In this document: positions 26,888 through 37,871 of the stretch, piece after piece | How positions within the stretch are numbered: the stretch's first letter is position 1 | How the letters are laid out: each line of letters starts with the position of its first letter | Source: a virus | Virus record (IMG/VR): IMGVR_UViG_3300045118_000261 | Span: 1 to 40,454 of that record | DNA: 40,454 nucleotides | Strand: one strand, 5' to 3' | The notes under the pieces: generated by a model | Told to the model about the DNA's origin: nothing | What the model saw: the letters and a program-made list of their open reading frames with translations, nothing else | Database searches by the model: none | Position numbers and translations under genes: made by a program

Positions 26888-27142
26888 TTACATTCTTTTT
26901 AATGCCTTATCAAACGTCTCATCATCTGATTCGCTTAAATCAATCTCCTCATTTTCTTTTTTTGAATCTTGAATACTTTTAGGAATATTTGTTGCGGCTA
27001 TATATTCATTTATGTTTCTACTCATGACTGCTTTTATGGCATCATTAAGCTTATTCGTCATATCTTTTTGATATACATATCGCTCGATAGATTGAAAAAT
27101 ACATAAAATACCTAGGATTGATAATCCTACTATGTCGTTCAT
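26888..27142 (-). CDS. Small membrane-anchored hypothetical protein
   Basis: An 84-residue protein with one hydrophobic segment at the N-terminus (VGLSILGILCIFQSIERY), then a charged helical part and an acidic region (NEEIDLSESDDE). It overlaps the next gene upstream as ATGA and precedes the portal gene. It has no recognisable family. The space to the portal gene (26830-26887) has small CCGG inverted repeats only. Confidence 0.55.
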   Translation of the reverse strand: MNDIVGLSILGILCIFQSIERYVYQKDMTNKLNDAIKAVMSRNINEYIAATNIPKSIQDSKKENEEIDLSESDDETFDKALKRM

Positions 27143-27456
27143 GGAAATACCTCTAAAAATCTTTTATATGGATTAGGTAACATAAAATATTCATTTTTAT
27201 AGAAAATTTGTTGAGTATTTACTATACAAATATCTTCTGAAAATATATATACATATATTGGAACTTCATTAAATGGATTTTTAAATATTTCATACTCCTT
27301 TGTTTTTTCAAGCGGTTCACCAGTGAATGCTTTTAATATAGACGTTGATCCGCTTATCCATTCATTGTTTCTAATTCCAACCGTTACTCTTTCTCCTTTA
27401 AGATCTACATTATCTAAAACACTTTGAGCAGTATCATACACAAGAAACATTCCCAT
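27139..27456 (-). CDS. Hypothetical protein after tRNA-Asn
   Basis: A conventional start (ATG at 27456) gives 105 residues beginning MGMFLVYDTAQ. The reading frame stays open upstream through the whole tRNA gene to 27672, and the 25 codons just before this ATG read like protein (LLQALYWTWDAFERSS), so the true start may be a rare codon or lie close to the tRNA. The protein is strand-rich and shows no known motif. It lies between the terminase/tRNA and portal genes, so a head-related role is possible. Confidence 0.5.
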   Translation of the reverse strand: MGMFLVYDTAQSVLDNVDLKGERVTVGIRNNEWISGSTSILKAFTGEPLEKTKEYEIFKNPFNEVPIYVYIFSEDICIVNTQQIFYKNEYFMLPNPYKRFLEVFP

Positions 27457-27527
27457 GCTTGACCGCTCAAAGGCATCCCACGTCCAGTAAAGAGCCTGAA
27501 GAAGTTTATCGTGAGAAAACGATATTG

Positions 27528-27599
27528 CTCCAGCAGAAGGAATCGAACCTCCAACCTCATTCTTAACAGGAATTTGCTCAACCGTTAAGCTATGCTGGA
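27528..27599 (-). tRNA. tRNA-Asn (GUU)
   Basis: The minus strand folds as a cloverleaf of 72 bases. The acceptor stem is a perfect 7 bases (TCCAGCA with TGCTGGA) with discriminator G73. The D arm is GCTT-AACGGTT-GAGC. The anticodon loop CTGTTAA has T33 and anticodon GTT, with a stem of four pairs plus an A-G mismatch at the top. The variable loop is AGGTT, and the T arm is GGAGG-TTCGATT-CCTTC. CCA is not encoded. It lies two bases after the large terminase stop. Confidence 0.88.
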
Positions 27600-27601
27600 T
27601 T

Positions 27602-28915
27602 TTAGACTTCTTCGTATTCTGTAAATTCAATGTTTTCTTCTTTTGTATCTTGGAGTATTTTTGTTTTCTCATATAAGTCTCTTTGTACGATGGTCATCGT
27701 CTTTTCTTTCGATGATTGTATTATAGGAGATAATCCCCAAATTGCAAGGGAGTGACTAAAACATATATCGTCTTTGAACCCTGGAGGAGCACCATATATG
27801 ACTCTGCCGGTCTTTTCTGAATAATCATAAGTGAATGAGTTGAACTCTTGTATTGTTTCTTCAAGATTAAGCATTTTTATATTTTTAAGCTCTATCCAAC
27901 TACTTAATTTTTCAATCAGTTGTTTTTTCATTTCATTTGTAAAATGGATAGGCTCACATGCCACACCGGACCGAACCAAATCCTCGTATATCGGCTCTCC
28001 AAGCCCAGTTGAATCTATATAGACAAGCGCATGGTTAAATTTTACTGCCAAGTCTTTGATTTTTGATTTTTGGAATGGCCATTCAAGTTTGTTAAATCTC
28101 ATTTGGTATACCTGATGATTATTTTTTCTGTCATATACCGTAAGAACAGTATAATCCTGTACTTTTGCCAGATCGCATCCAATAACATATAAATGATTTT
28201 CCTTTGGTTCTTCTGGTTGCAATACACAAATTTCTCTTACTCCTCTAAATACTACACCAGTATCATCAAGAAATTCTGCGTATATTTCCTGTTTTACTAC
28301 ACGCTCTGGCATATCTTTCATATCTTGCATAATAATTTCATGCGGTATATAGGGATTATCAAAAGAAGTAAACCTGAAAGATCGATAATTTACCTGATCT
28401 TTATCAAGTCCACGATTATAAAGTTGTTCAAATAATCCTTTCCCTTTTGGTGTTCCGCCAATAACACCATGAGTATGGTCTGTCCATAACATTGGCTTAA
28501 TTGCATTATTGTATAGATATTCATTTTTTAGAATAATTCCAGCCTCATTGAGAAACCACTCATCATATTCAAATCCTTCTATGTTTTCAGGATTATCGGC
28601 ACTCCTAAAGTCTATATAGGAGTTTTTAATTTGAAGAATTTTCTGCTGTTTTCTCCAGTTAAATATATTTTGAGGTAGTTTTGTAAGTGCAGGAAGAAAA
28701 TACCGCTCAACATATCGCTCTATGTTTGCGTTTACCGTGTCCACCCATAAACCGCGCTTAAACTCATTTTTTAGCGCTTTTTTAATAAAATTATTTGCAG
28801 CACCACGAGTAAGTCCAAACCGTCGTCCTTTTGGTACGATAATAAACCGAGTAGGACAAGTGAAAATAGAATCCTGACTAGAAAAATTCTTAATTGGAAG
28901 CTGAATAACAGACAT
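27602..28915 (-). CDS. terL: Terminase large subunit
   Basis: A 437-residue packaging motor with an ATPase and a nuclease. The ATP-binding region is VPKGRRFGLTR (27-37): the usual lysine of GRRxGKTR is Leu35, while K29 stands before the loop, as in some other terminases. Walker B and the catalytic carboxylate are YDEWFLNEAG (117-126). GGTPKGKG (153-160) is the coupling motif. The RNase H-like nuclease has D248 (GCDLAK), D301 (YIDSTGLGEP) and D382/D383 (KDDI). A DUF5681-like gene, possibly the small subunit, lies separated by sugar genes. Confidence 0.9.
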   Translation of the reverse strand: MSVIQLPIKNFSSQDSIFTCPTRFIIVPKGRRFGLTRGAANNFIKKALKNEFKRGLWVDTVNANIERYVERYFLPALTKLPQNIFNWRKQQKILQIKNSYIDFRSADNPENIEGFEYDEWFLNEAGIILKNEYLYNNAIKPMLWTDHTHGVIGGTPKGKGLFEQLYNRGLDKDQVNYRSFRFTSFDNPYIPHEIIMQDMKDMPERVVKQEIYAEFLDDTGVVFRGVREICVLQPEEPKENHLYVIGCDLAKVQDYTVLTVYDRKNNHQVYQMRFNKLEWPFQKSKIKDLAVKFNHALVYIDSTGLGEPIYEDLVRSGVACEPIHFTNEMKKQLIEKLSSWIELKNIKMLNLEETIQEFNSFTYDYSEKTGRVIYGAPPGFKDDICFSHSLAIWGLSPIIQSSKEKTMTIVQRDLYEKTKILQDTKEENIEFTEYEEV

Positions 28916-31035: not shown

Positions 31036-31380
31036 TTATGAATCTTCTTTTTGTTTATCTTCAATTATTTTTACCTCTATTTGATTTCCATCATTACCAG
31101 AAAACTCATTTTTTTGGACTGGCATACCATCTATGTAATTCCATAAGGTCTTAATTGCTGTTATATCACCTTGAAGAGCCATGTGAAGTATTTTTTGTCC
31201 TAGAGCTTTCTTTATCTCTGGCTTTTCATCCATCATGGCTTTAATTGTCTCTGTAATAGAATGACCTTTCTTAGGTCTGCCAGTTGGATTAAGAACGCCA
31301 GAAACGACTCGTCCATTTTCATCACGCACCAATTCTCTACCATTATTCTCTACTTGATTATTGGTGTTATTGTCTTCCAT
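31036..31380 (-). CDS. DUF5681-like, possible small terminase
   Basis: A 114-residue protein containing NPTGRPKKGHSITETIKAMM (31-50) and ILHMALQGDITAIKTLWNYI (64-83) with DGMPVQ after it. This is the pattern I associate with DUF5681-type phage proteins that lie close to the large terminase and may recognise DNA as the small subunit. A strong AAAGGAGG precedes the start, and the gene overlaps the methyltransferase gene by 31 bases. The terminase role is inferred. Confidence 0.65.
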   Translation of the reverse strand: MEDNNTNNQVENNGRELVRDENGRVVSGVLNPTGRPKKGHSITETIKAMMDEKPEIKKALGQKILHMALQGDITAIKTLWNYIDGMPVQKNEFSGNDGNQIEVKIIEDKQKEDS

Positions 31381-32102
31381 TCCGCCTCCTTTCCAATAAA
31401 TTTAGCATAGCGTTTGCGGATTACATCGGCGTAATGCTCGTAGATCTCCATTATATAGCAAATACGGTTTGTTTGTTCACAGGCGATAAGAAATGAACCG
31501 CTACCACCGTATGGGTCAAATATAATATCGTTTTCCTTACTAAACTTCTTATAAAACCATGAAGCTAGTTGTATTGGTTTTTGCGTAGGATGCTGTCTAT
31601 TACTTCCTTTCTCTTGTTCAGTTCCAAATATACCAGCCCATCTAATTCTTACTATTTCTCGTTTATGTTTTTGTTTACTCCACACTAACTCAAATGTAGA
31701 ACCAAACATTCTATCCATATTTTCTTCAACACGTTTATCCCATACAAACCAACTACCATCATTAGGAAGTGTTTTAGAATAATAATCCCCACCAAAATAA
31801 AATTGCTCTTTAATACCATAATCCATATAAATAAATGGTTTATCATCACCTATTATAGAATTGTATTTCTTGCCGCTTTTCACTCCTTTTTCAAGAGCAA
31901 ACCGCGGCTTGCTCTTCATGCCGCTATAATCCGTATCTAAATCCATCCCATACGGTGGGTCAGTAAACACCATATCCGCTTTCTTCCCGTTCATCAACTT
32001 CTCTACATCCTCAATCTTTGTCGAATCACCACACATTAAAAAGTGAGATTTTATATCCGCTTCAGTATATCCAAACTCATGATCGCCACATTTCTGTATC
32101 AT
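31350..32102 (-). CDS. DNA adenine/cytosine-N4 methyltransferase, C-terminal part of a ParB-MTase
   Basis: A 250-residue methyltransferase with TDPPYG (47-52) before the SAM-binding FDPYGGSGSF (195-204), the beta-class order, and HPTQKP in between. DPPY favours N6-adenine. The start (MIQKCGDHEFGYTEADIKSH then FLMCGDSTK) looks like the middle of a longer protein: in many phages a ParB-like domain is fused just upstream of LMCGDST. Here the ParB part is a separate gene (32728-33303) and an HNH gene lies between them. It probably modifies phage DNA against restriction; the target is unknown. Confidence 0.8.
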   Translation of the reverse strand: MIQKCGDHEFGYTEADIKSHFLMCGDSTKIEDVEKLMNGKKADMVFTDPPYGMDLDTDYSGMKSKPRFALEKGVKSGKKYNSIIGDDKPFIYMDYGIKEQFYFGGDYYSKTLPNDGSWFVWDKRVEENMDRMFGSTFELVWSKQKHKREIVRIRWAGIFGTEQEKGSNRQHPTQKPIQLASWFYKKFSKENDIIFDPYGGSGSFLIACEQTNRICYIMEIYEHYADVIRKRYAKFIGKEAEWKTITPIIK

Positions 32103-32701
32103 ATTTTATTATTCTTTGAACAATTACAACTTATACATAAAGGCTGTAAATTATCTATATTGTTTTTCCCACCTTTTGAAAGTGGAATTATATGATCTAT
32201 TGTAATTTTTTCTTTAGTTTTACACATTTGACATTCTCCATTTAATTCTAATAATTTAGCTTCCCATAATTTCTTATCTATTTTACCGCTTTTATTGTTT
32301 CTTAACCTATATTTATAAGTTTTTAATTGCCATTTACCTTTTTCAGTTTTCCTATATTTTTTAGTTGCTTTATTATTGTTTTTTCGTCCTAATTTAGACT
32401 TACTATAATTTTTATCTCTTATTTTTTTAGCTTGCTGACACTTAATACACTTTTCTAAATGCTTCGTTGCCCTTAATACCGCTAAATGCCTTGCTTTAGG
32501 CTTTGATCTATATTTTTTCTCATTTAACCATCTTTTATTACTTTTTATCCATCTATTATTTGTTTTTATTCCTTTATTGGTTTTTTTATATTTAGCCTTA
32601 ATTTTTCTTATATTTATAATCTTGCAATCATTACAAAGTCCCCATTTATGATGCCAATGTGGATTAGGAATAAAGTTTTTTTTACAATCTCTACATAACA
32701 T
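32099..32701 (-). CDS. HNH endonuclease inserted between ParB-like and methyltransferase genes
   Basis: A 200-residue, very Lys/Asn-rich protein. The C-terminal HNH domain is CQMCKTKEKITIDHIIPLSK with NNIDNLQPLCISCN, which carries the metal-binding His and Asn plus two CxxC pairs. The N-terminus has CRDC and CNDC, another zinc site. Its composition is more AT-rich than its neighbours. It has its own promoter and overlaps the methyltransferase start as ATGA. Free-standing HNH genes like this are usually homing elements. Confidence 0.85.
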   Translation of the reverse strand: MLCRDCKKNFIPNPHWHHKWGLCNDCKIINIRKIKAKYKKTNKGIKTNNRWIKSNKRWLNEKKYRSKPKARHLAVLRATKHLEKCIKCQQAKKIRDKNYSKSKLGRKNNNKATKKYRKTEKGKWQLKTYKYRLRNNKSGKIDKKLWEAKLLELNGECQMCKTKEKITIDHIIPLSKGGKNNIDNLQPLCISCNCSKNNKI

Positions 32702-32707
32702 GACTTT

Positions 32708-32735
32708 ATTATATCACCACACATCAATTATTCAA
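32708..32735 (-). promoter_or_regulatory. Promoter of the HNH gene, probably leaderless
   Basis: The minus strand has TTGAAT (32735-32730), a 16-base spacer ending in TGA, and TATAAT (32713-32708), an extended -10. The ATG at 32701 starts seven bases after the -10, so the message would have no leader. The same region reads in frame as LMCGD, a remnant of the methyltransferase motif. Confidence 0.6.
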
Positions 32736-33303
32736 GATGGTGTTTCTTTCCACATTTTGGACATATTATCCATTTTCCAAGTTGATATACTTCACCCAGC
32801 CTCGATATAGGCTCTCCCCCTGCTACCTCCGGCACTTCATCTTCTTTAATTTCTTTGAAACCGTCTATTAGCTGATCTAGGGTTTGTGGTTGTTTCAGGT
32901 CAACCGCGTAATCCTCCCAGGTAAAATCAGAAAACTCCCCAGACAAGTTAGCTAGCAGGTCCTCATCATAGAACCCCGCCCTGTCATTATCGGACAAGGC
33001 ATATTCTAACTTCTTCTCCGCTGTATCGGCCCTAACTACAGACACCCAAACATTCTCTATGCCCAACTCTCTGTATGCCCGCAACCTCATGTTGCCGCCT
33101 AATACTATACCGTCTTCGGTAATCACAAGCGGCTTGTATTGCCCCAGCTCCTGTATCTGTTTCTTTAGTCGCTCGAAATCTTTCGCCTTAATAGATCGAG
33201 GGTTCTTGTCCCACTCCCGTAAAGACAACAAAGATCGTATTATTTTCCTACCAGATTCCTGCCTCTGTACTGCCTTAGGATGGCTTGTTTTTGTGTTAGT
33301 CAT
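32728..33303 (-). CDS. ParB/Srx-like nuclease domain protein
   Basis: A 191-residue protein. Residues 25-95 are a ParB-like domain: LREWDKNPRSI, QELGQYKPLVITEDGIVLGG and NMRLRAYRELG carry the usual GGxxR-type motif. The end (ISRLGEVYQLGKWIICPKCG) is the linker that in fused proteins leads into an LMCGDST methyltransferase. It stops shortly after, at a TAA, where the HNH insertion starts. It may help the methyltransferase find or hold DNA. GAATAAGGC precedes the ATG. Confidence 0.8.
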   Translation of the reverse strand: MTNTKTSHPKAVQRQESGRKIIRSLLSLREWDKNPRSIKAKDFERLKKQIQELGQYKPLVITEDGIVLGGNMRLRAYRELGIENVWVSVVRADTAEKKLEYALSDNDRAGFYDEDLLANLSGEFSDFTWEDYAVDLKQPQTLDQLIDGFKEIKEDEVPEVAGGEPISRLGEVYQLGKWIICPKCGKKHHLE

Positions 33304-33798: not shown

Positions 33799-34650
33799 TC
33801 AAACATCTGCATATTTTATCGCTCTCATAATTTCAATCGCCACCTGCGGGACTATTGCATTTCCATAGGCTTTAAGTGCTTCTTTCCGCCACCACGGATA
33901 GAATTTATAGTCTTCACGTCCAAGTCCACCCAATCTTGCGGGTATCCCATCATCCATCCTACAAAATCGCTGTGCAACTTCAACCCAGTTTTGTTCCCAA
34001 CTTCGTGATTTAACTTTCCCCTTCCTGCTTTCTTCATATTTACCCCTGCTGAATGAGATTGATAATCGTTGCTTCGTGTTGTAGGCAACAATCCAAACTC
34101 TGTCCCGCCTGTGTGGCGCATTGACGGAAACAGCTGGAATAATGAACGGCTGTACTTCGTAGTTTTCCTTTTCCAAGTCAGTGCACACTTGTTCGAGAAC
34201 CAATCCGTTGTTCCAAGTAACCAATCCCGCAACATTTTCAGCGATGATCCACCGTGGTCGATAGAGTCGAATAACGTCAAACATTGGAGACCAGAGGTAA
34301 CGGTCATCATCCGTTCCTTTTCTTCGTCCAGCATGGCTAAACGGTTGGCAGGGGAAGCCACCAGTGAGAAAATCACATCCGCTATGTTCCTTGAATGTGT
34401 CGTTCCTTTTCCTGATATTCTGCGTCCCGTCTTTGATAACTTTGCTTTTGGATGTTCTACATCCTGACCTGTCGGTGTCGGCAATAAACTGTCTGATGTC
34501 GCCATAAAATTCTCCTTTCGACCAATGTTTTTTCAATACCGCTTGGCAAAACGGGTCAATTTCCACGAAAACATGCTCTGCGTTCTTCCATACTTGGTCT
34601 ACCGCATAACTAAATCCACCAATGCCTGCAAATAAATCTATGTGTATCAT
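33799..34650 (-). CDS. DNA cytosine-5 methyltransferase
   Basis: A 283-residue C5 methyltransferase with the full set of motifs: DLFAGIGGF (5-13), EIDPFC (30-35), GGFPCQPFSHAG (97-108, catalytic C101), IAENVAGL (136-143), APHRRDRVW (178-186) and AYGNAIVPQV near the end. The region between motifs II and IV is longer than usual and rich in Lys/Arg. A GGGGAGGG ribosome-binding site precedes it. A second long frame (33852-34505) lies wholly inside this gene. It probably protects phage DNA; the target site is unknown. Confidence 0.9.
   Translation of the reverse strand: MIHIDLFAGIGGFSYAVDQVWKNAEHVFVEIDPFCQAVLKKHWSKGEFYGDIRQFIADTDRSGCRTSKSKVIKDGTQNIRKRNDTFKEHSGCDFLTGGFPCQPFSHAGRRKGTDDDRYLWSPMFDVIRLYRPRWIIAENVAGLVTWNNGLVLEQVCTDLEKENYEVQPFIIPAVSVNAPHRRDRVWIVAYNTKQRLSISFSRGKYEESRKGKVKSRSWEQNWVEVAQRFCRMDDGIPARLGGLGREDYKFYPWWRKEALKAYGNAIVPQVAIEIMRAIKYADV
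33852..34505 (-). CDS. Gene nested in the cytosine methyltransferase (other frame, same strand)
   Basis: A 217-codon ORF entirely inside the methyltransferase gene. Its ATG follows AAAGGAG with a six-base gap, one of the best ribosome-binding sites in the window. The product reads like a real protein: LLPTPTGQD near the start, then DWLLGTTDWFSNKCALTWK, LLPTTRSNDYQSHS and FVGWMMGYPQDW. I recognise these as recurring in phage proteins linked to cytosine methyltransferases (for instance endings like FVEWMMGYP). I therefore treat it as a true overlapping gene, function unknown. Confidence 0.7.
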   Translation of the reverse strand: MATSDSLLPTPTGQDVEHPKAKLSKTGRRISGKGTTHSRNIADVIFSLVASPANRLAMLDEEKERMMTVTSGLQCLTLFDSIDHGGSSLKMLRDWLLGTTDWFSNKCALTWKRKTTKYSRSLFQLFPSMRHTGGTEFGLLPTTRSNDYQSHSAGVNMKKAGRGKLNHEVGNKTGLKLHSDFVGWMMGYPQDWVDLDVKTINSIRGGGKKHLKPMEMQ

Positions 34651-36595: not shown

Positions 36596-36739
36596 TCATT
36601 TTCTTTCGTTATACTCCTTCAAAAACTGCTGATAATCACGAGCAACTATTTCTCGCGTCCACTGACGCACGATCCCTTCCGGTATGCTTCCAACATAATC
36701 CAGCATAAGCCAGTCAACTATTGCTTCGAGTTTTGTCAT
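36596..36739 (-). CDS. Small hypothetical protein
   Basis: A 47-residue ORF starting MTKLEAIVDWLMLDYVG and ending LKEYNERK. Its ATG overlaps the stop of the alanine-rich gene as ATGA. It looks helical with a central IPEGIVRQWTREIV segment. No family is recognised. It stands where the other paralogue of the alanine-rich gene is followed by a different small gene (40006-40170). Confidence 0.6.
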   Translation of the reverse strand: MTKLEAIVDWLMLDYVGSIPEGIVRQWTREIVARDYQQFLKEYNERK

Positions 36740-37425
36740 ACCTCATCCAATGTTTTTATTCTTTTGAGCATCCAGGTACGGATTTTAGAGGTGATTCTTG
36801 TGTTTACTCTCGCCACTAAACTCGCCTTCCATTCCGCCGTCTCCGCCGCATTCCATTCCGCCGCCCATGCCAACACCGCCGCCTCCGCCGCCAACGCCTC
36901 CGCCGCCTCCACCGCCTTCGCCGCCGCCCATGCCGCCGCCGCCGCCTTCGCCGCCGCCCATGCCGCCGCCTTCGCCGCCTCCCATTCCGCATTCCATTCT
37001 GCCACCGCCTTCGCCGCCGCTTTCACATTCTTTTCTGTCGGGTGTTTGGTCCACGCTTTTGCCGCTTCTATTGCTTTTCTCGGACGGTCGTCGTTGGGGT
37101 ATTGTTTTTCGTAGATATCTATAACCAGTTCTGCGGCGTAGATTGCTAAAGCAACGCTGTCCTTTTTCTGCCAATGATAGGCTTTCACGATCCGCATGTC
37201 TGACCAACACTCTTTGTTATCCTGTATGATAGACTTGCCTTTTGTTTCCACGATGGCAAGGATTTCGCCCTGGACGTAACTAAATGCCTGGTCGGGGTAC
37301 CTCGAACAGTGAAAACCGAAATGGCACATATCTAGTGTGTCCTCATGTTTCCACTTACCAATTTCCCATTTAGAGAGATTGCCGTTGTCACTTTGCAGAC
37401 TCGAACGTAAGAATTTGTATTTCAT
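36736..37425 (-). CDS. DUF7666-like protein with alanine-rich repeat tail
   Basis: A 229-residue protein starting MKYKFLRSSL; the ATG overlaps the upstream stop as ATGA and marks the exact end of a 94-base repeat shared with 1-94. Residues 1-75 (with MCHFGFHCSRYPDQAF and YVQGEILAIVE) resemble the DUF7666 type. Residues about 100-205 are an alanine repeat with Trp, Lys and Glu at intervals (AKAAAWAAAKAAAAAWAAAK). The tail SKIRTWMLKRIKTL is shared with the edge protein. DNA here is strikingly GC-rich. The function is unknown. Confidence 0.75.
   Translation of the reverse strand: MKYKFLRSSLQSDNGNLSKWEIGKWKHEDTLDMCHFGFHCSRYPDQAFSYVQGEILAIVETKGKSIIQDNKECWSDMRIVKAYHWQKKDSVALAIYAAELVIDIYEKQYPNDDRPRKAIEAAKAWTKHPTEKNVKAAAKAVAEWNAEWEAAKAAAWAAAKAAAAAWAAAKAVEAAEALAAEAAVLAWAAEWNAAETAEWKASLVARVNTRITSKIRTWMLKRIKTLDEV
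37332..37425. repeat. 94-base direct repeat (identical to 1-94)
   Basis: The first 94 bases of the alanine-rich gene are identical to positions 1-94 of the window, ending exactly at the ATG. This is strong evidence for a second, recently duplicated or converted gene copy that the assembly could not cross. Confidence 0.95.
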
Positions 37426-37871
37426 CTTTTCTTCCTTTCTCCAAGGGTAGAAATCCACATTGCAATCTCCTTGTTTGTCACCATTCTGTTTGAATCAGTA
37501 ATCCTGTCTTCGTTAAGCCATTGACGGAGCATGCCTATATCCTGTTTGAGCTGTGCAATCATTTCCTCCCGTTGGTGGGTGAGAAGGGAACGAATAAAAT
37601 CTTTAAGATCATTTTCAAAGACAGATAAATGCTTCTCTTTTCCGTCAACGGTAAAAAACTTGTCAATAATTTTGAATAACCGTTTCTCCCAATCTTCCCG
37701 TTTCCCGTTACAAATATCACAATAATTTGGATAATACAGATGGTCGCAGAAACCACTTGGGTTCCGTATCGACACATCACGTTTACAATGTTTACAAAGT
37801 TTTTTTCCATGACTTGTCCCCTCGTCTGCGGTAACGGTTTTCATTGATGATTGGCAACAGATACTTTTCAT
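37422..37871 (-). CDS. Zinc-finger-like hypothetical protein
   Basis: A 149-residue protein with several Cys/His: CC (5-6), CKHC (26-29) and CDHLYYPNYCDIC (42-54), followed by a long charged helical part (about 60-120). Such proteins are common in phage accessory regions and may bind nucleic acid. It is joined by ATGA overlaps on both sides. Confidence 0.6.
   Translation of the reverse strand: MKSICCQSSMKTVTADEGTSHGKKLCKHCKRDVSIRNPSGFCDHLYYPNYCDICNGKREDWEKRLFKIIDKFFTVDGKEKHLSVFENDLKDFIRSLLTHQREEMIAQLKQDIGMLRQWLNEDRITDSNRMVTNKEIAMWISTLGERKKR

Follow-up and report, generated by a model that had tools for sequence, protein, structure and literature searches.

A gene nested in the +1 frame of a phage C5-cytosine DNA methyltransferase gene and its probable role as second chain of a split enzyme

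The alpha/beta locus and its surroundings

The window analyzed here, a stretch of 40,454 nucleotides, is the record of an uncultivated virus and carries on its minus strand a gene for a C5-cytosine DNA methyltransferase, which we call alpha. Alpha matches phrog_363 (E 2.6e-59), PF00145 (E 1.2e-42, with an alignment that covers only positions 3-169 of 324) and TIGR00675 (alignment limited to 2-192 of 329), and the presence of motifs I, IV (PCQ), VI (ENV), VIII and X in alignment A5 places it among the C5-cytosine DNA methyltransferases. The original prediction had drawn attention to an open reading frame (ORF) of 217 codons, here beta, that lies on the same strand and entirely within alpha, and to an AAAGGAG six bases before its ATG. 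We found both in place, with the start codon at 34505-34503 (minus strand) and the frame at +1 relative to alpha, and the shuffles described below show that the ORF is not a product of chance. The features of the locus are as follows:

33799..34650, minus: alpha, C5-cytosine DNA methyltransferase, 283 aa (matches to PF00145, phrog_363 and TIGR00675)
33852..34505, minus: beta, nested +1-frame gene, 217 aa, phrog_1008 family (match to phrog_1008, homologs, shuffles)
34512..34518, minus: AAAGGAG, Shine-Dalgarno sequence of beta, 6 bases upstream of the ATG (sequence and enrichment in the family)
34612..34638, minus: motif I of alpha, DLFAGIGGF (alignment A5)
34336..34362, minus: motif IV of alpha, GGFPCQPFS, with the catalytic Cys (alignment A5)
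34231..34239, minus: motif VI of alpha, ENV (alignment A5)
34084..34119, minus: motif VIII of alpha, APHRRDRVWIVA (alignment A5)
33844..33873, minus: motif X of alpha, KAYGNAIVPQ, which contains the stop codon of beta (alignment A5)
34461..34484, minus: first L-P-T-P motif of beta, LPTPTGQD, N-terminal
34122..34340, minus: conserved N-half of beta, residues 56-128, opposite motifs IV-VIII of alpha (alignment A4, AlphaFold)
34065..34088, minus: second PTP motif of beta, degenerate, LPTTRSND
33924..33974, minus: motif IX-like stretch of beta, SDFVGWMMGYPQDWV (MGxPxxW counts, hhalign)

Downstream of alpha and beta, the same strand carries a ParB-like and N6/N4 methyltransferase pair as well as a terminase, which supports a setting of phage-DNA methylation. 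The neighborhood resembles the ParB-terminase loci of Paracoccus prophages, which also hold m5C methyltransferases (PMC6536676). The relaxed-specificity m5C enzymes of these prophages were considered as possible characterized members of the class and set aside; their relatives are about 700 aa long.

Other features of the window were recorded alongside. The ParB-like plus N6/N4 DNA methyltransferase gene (phrog_498; 31350-33303, minus) is present as two ORFs, 32728-33303 and 31350-32102, and an HNH endonuclease ORF (32099-32701) sits between them, an arrangement reminiscent of a gene split by a homing element; Rfam revealed no intron. A tRNA gene (27528-27599, minus; 58.9 bits with Rfam) is found directly 3' of the terminase ORF, within the ORF 27139-27672, and positions 36736-37458 form a low-complexity stretch rich in Ala, Trp and Glu in which several frames are open.

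Both frames are conserved coding sequence

The +1 frame of alpha is open over 226 codons from stop to stop. When the synonymous codons of alpha were permuted, leaving the protein and the codon counts unchanged, this length averaged 77 codons with a maximum of 218 (0 of 300 shuffles as long as the real frame), and at related loci the +1 frame exceeded all 300 shuffles in 74 of 91 cases. Since these 91 loci had been found via beta, and selection by beta patterns favors beta motifs, the length test was rerun on a fair set consisting of loci found by alpha motifs only, where 100 shuffles failed to match the +1 length in 71 of 78 cases (the contigs being partly shared with the first set).

Sequence content leads to the same result. 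Against a profile of the nested family, built for this purpose after removal of relatives above 45% identity, the +1 product of our locus scores 187 bits and its shuffles 84 ± 12 (maximum 116; 0 of 200 as high), and the real beta genes of 21 loci score 163 to 264 bits (z 8.4-12.9), a level that none of 200 shuffles attained at any of the 21. Between pairs of relatives, the substitutions per site at alpha codon positions 1, 2 and 3 are 0.314, 0.220 and 0.368 over the 12,205 codons of the overlap, versus 0.216, 0.151 and 0.517 over the 4,053 codons outside it. In the overlap, the third positions of alpha are thus restrained and the first and second ones freed, as expected if both frames code. 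Finally, Shine-Dalgarno sequences, scored as AGGA, GGAG or GAGG upstream, are enriched at beta starts: in the genome loci, most of which come from Firmicutes, they precede 65% of beta starts and 15% of the remaining internal ATGs, and in the viral loci 21% and 10%, respectively.

One could suppose that the +1 frame is open simply as a consequence of the amino acids and codon bias of alpha and that the nested similarity mirrors the conservation of alpha. Some of this similarity does derive from alpha, since shuffled genes alone reach 58-104 bits against the beta profile, alpha conservation being sufficient to make +1 products alike. Nevertheless, the supposition is already refuted by the shuffle tests on length and profile score, by canonical methyltransferases, in which no such effect is seen (the +1 frame of the Dcm enzymes from 20 bacterial genomes is not longer than its shuffles), and by the motif MGxPxxW, which occurs in beta at 65 of 78 loci against 0.4 expected in a scan that was not selected on it, and at 163 of 168 loci against 1.0 expected in the larger set. 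The two frames of the locus are therefore both conserved coding sequence, as had originally been predicted; homologs that keep the frame open do exist, and selection is not confined to the outer frame.

Distribution and annotation of the nested family

A tblastn search yielded 64 phage records. Over all loci collected, beta is in the +1 frame and inside or overlapping alpha in 92 of 92 viral and phage loci and in 80 of 80 bacterial contig loci (172/172), with no free-standing homolog among these 172; in the scan by alpha patterns only, the profile found beta at each of the 76 loci with a scored alpha ORF. According to record titles, the loci from the IMG/VR and GTDB scans belong to Bacillota, Pseudomonadota, Bacteroidota, Acidobacteriota, Elusimicrobia and Calditrichota, plus one spirochaete and one coriobacterium. 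An overprinted gene of such length had been considered rare, an expectation that does not hold in this methyltransferase class, where a nested beta is the rule.

Beta belongs to phrog_1008 (E 1.7e-22), as do all 58 betas tested; this family is named "DNA methyltransferase," a label that conveys neither a subunit role nor the nesting. We found no Pfam model and no credible NCBIfam model for beta. The arrangement is on record in Paenibacillus larvae phages, whose genes LILY_63 and SHELLY_56 are homologs of beta in the +1 frame inside a C5 methyltransferase gene. They are recorded as "g62 / g55 internal gene," hypothetical protein, with no function proposed in the records, and the internal gene is not discussed in the passages of the P. 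larvae phage papers that we consulted. In the Porphyromonas phage018a record beta is annotated and alpha is not, and the reverse applies to Lacticaseibacillus phage R9.1; gene calling in a single frame hides the other chain. The mycobacteriophages Rhynn and Zerg also carry a C5 methyltransferase with a nested beta (65 and 80 bits); alpha is matched by 463 Mycobacterium phage records, and many more of them may carry beta.

Division of the motifs between two chains

The original prediction took the C5 motifs of the outer frame to be complete. We find instead that motif IX is missing between motifs VIII and X of alpha (alignment A5, TIGR00675), which sets alpha apart from the monomeric C5 type, and that an IX-like motif, FVGWMMGYPQDW, ends the nested chain; alignment A5 revealed no conserved recognition region in alpha either. 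Monomeric enzymes such as Dcm and those of TIGR00675 are homologous to alpha over motifs I-VIII and X, but they contain motif IX within that single chain and lack a nested frame. Both differences recur in the 20 bacterial genomes, where 15 of 15 strong members of the class lack motif IX and possess beta, whereas the canonical Dcm enzymes have no beta and contain motif IX, as scored by eye and by a regular expression that catches few of them.

The C-terminal consensus of the beta family, LNPxWVEWLMGFPxGWTDL, is motif IX-like. When beta was compared to a canonical C5 profile with hhalign, the best stretch was exactly motif IX (LMGfP-gWT on iQsFPd), in a short and weak alignment (P 0.02). The conserved N-half of beta has no known homolog and nothing similar in Pfam or NCBIfam; it consists of a pair of helices plus a beta-hairpin, with LTW..K and LFQL, and the hairpin reaches a pLDDT of ∼90 in AlphaFold. 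Models of beta alone from two alignments (pLDDT 62 and 64, pTM 0.27) are confident only in the hairpin and short helices; Foldseek found no fold match for the model in the PDB, nor did the beta profile match PDB sequences. A weak match to HaeII endonuclease (E 0.37) was dismissed as noise. Beta also contains 0 to 5 copies of a PTP repeat, [WL]PTPxAxD, as counted in loci L001 to L171. At our locus and at two others (L014 and L009), one copy lies at the N terminus of beta and alpha has an insertion at the same place, and it is possible that the repeats are recognition modules open in both frames. PTPTAS in these repeats may resemble the TL motif found in recognition domains.

In relatives, motifs IX and X change frame. 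Motif X is in the frame of beta in L038, L057, L093 and L154, and in the last two alpha ends directly past motif VIII while beta continues through IX into X. Conversely, IX and X both lie in the frame of alpha in L297 and in a group of viral contigs, where the N-half of beta is still nested. In the actinobacterial L298, a single ORF holds motifs I-VIII, PTP repeats, the IX-like motif at almost canonical spacing and motif X, and it still matches the beta profile (E 6e-11). ORFs with both motifs in the frame of alpha have 19-23 residues from IX to X, compared to mostly 19 in canonical enzymes. Motif X was counted with a regular expression that misses some instances, and some of the exchanges seen in contigs from metagenomes (L170, L038 and L057 are examples) could reflect indels introduced by sequencing.

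Based on an alpha chain without motif IX, a beta chain with an IX-like motif, and the switching of IX and X between frames in relatives, we propose, with a probability of roughly 0.8, that the locus specifies a C5-cytosine DNA methyltransferase that is split by nature, with its alpha and beta chains in two frames of the same strand. Alpha would contribute motif X and, with motifs I-VIII, the core that binds AdoMet and carries out catalysis. Beta, translated in the +1 frame from its own Shine-Dalgarno sequence and ATG inside alpha, would bind alpha, complete the small domain by supplying motif IX, and probably also bring the target-recognition region. Only the alpha/beta pair would methylate DNA, the most likely target being the phage DNA, which would thereby be protected against host restriction. 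The physical association of the chains, the need for both in activity, recognition by beta and the protective role are inferred. Since the N-half of beta has no known homolog and no in-frame fusion of it with alpha was found among the loci studied, we can likewise only infer its role.

Two other explanations of a coding beta deserve attention. Beta could be a separate protein, such as an anti-restriction protein, a regulator or an inhibitor of the methyltransferase, that is overprinted on alpha by happenstance, which would agree with its own start and Shine-Dalgarno sequence and with an N-half unlike anything in Pfam or NCBIfam. We consider this improbable given that not a single free-standing homolog appears in the 172 loci, that beta carries the very motif that alpha lacks, and that in relatives parts of beta are found in the frame of alpha, and motif X in that of beta. 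The prediction of an unusual partner or anti-restriction protein accordingly survives in its first half, as beta looks like a partner of the enclosing enzyme. The second half is not supported: at the loci examined, homologs always lie within genes for this class of enzyme, parts of the nested chain are found fused in the frame of alpha, and Pfam, NCBIfam and PHROG yielded no similarity of beta to known anti-restriction families. Still less probable, in our estimation, is a programmed +1 frameshift that fuses alpha to the beta frame to give one full-length enzyme, leaving the internal start unused. In L093 and L154, a +1 shift near the end of alpha would indeed produce a single chain with I-VIII and IX-X, yet such a product would omit the N-half of beta, which overlaps motifs IV-VIII and is conserved beyond the constraint of alpha, and the enrichment of Shine-Dalgarno sequences at the start of beta itself also opposes this explanation.

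A split methyltransferase of this kind is already known, as M.EcoHK31I and M.AquI are both split C5 enzymes. Lee, Kam and Shaw reportedly found in 1995 that the gene for the large M.EcoHK31I chain also encodes the small one, in a different frame, and the small chain beta likewise lies in another frame inside the alpha gene. M.EcoHK31I (YGGCCR) consists of two polypeptides with only motif IX on the smaller one (PMC3404938), that is, I-VIII and X on the large chain and IX on the small chain, the same division as between alpha and beta. M.EcoHK31I is biochemically proven and part of a restriction-modification system, whereas alpha/beta comes from a phage, is known from sequence and is likened to it by motif layout; furthermore, variable PTP repeats are a feature of the alpha/beta family, unlike M.EcoHK31I. 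The M.EcoHK31I sequence itself was not found in plasmids or E. coli genomes, where a DNA search with a divergent relative gave no match. In M.AquI (CYCGRG), the alpha chain has motifs I-VIII and the beta chain IX-X (PMC3404938), a split as in L093 and L154; at our locus, by contrast, alpha has motif X (33844-33873) and encloses all of beta. Of the family, its breadth, the repeats and the frame exchanges, we found no description in open papers.

A broader picture can be drawn, which we regard as speculative and rather doubtful at this stage: a very large, almost wholly unannotated class of two-chain methyltransferases in which a recognition chain is overprinted on a catalytic chain, where the 0-5 PTP repeats (WPTPTASD) would be swappable modules for recognition that stay open in both frames, where phages would add or change methylation targets by duplicating modules, and where motifs IX and X would move between chains by a change of frame.

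Long genes nested on the same strand are usually put down to misannotation, and one of the two frames is often all that a gene caller keeps. Here, a fully nested beta recurs in numerous bacterial phyla and in their phages, its conservation exceeds what alpha can account for, and a role can be proposed for it, in which it would complete the enclosing enzyme. The two-frame, two-chain design has a precedent, but in this large and mostly unannotated family it is the rule. Recognition of alpha and beta would correct many phage annotations, and we predict that such methyltransferases cloned with just one intact frame would be inactive. Together, alpha and beta offer a tractable system for the origin and maintenance of overprinted genes.
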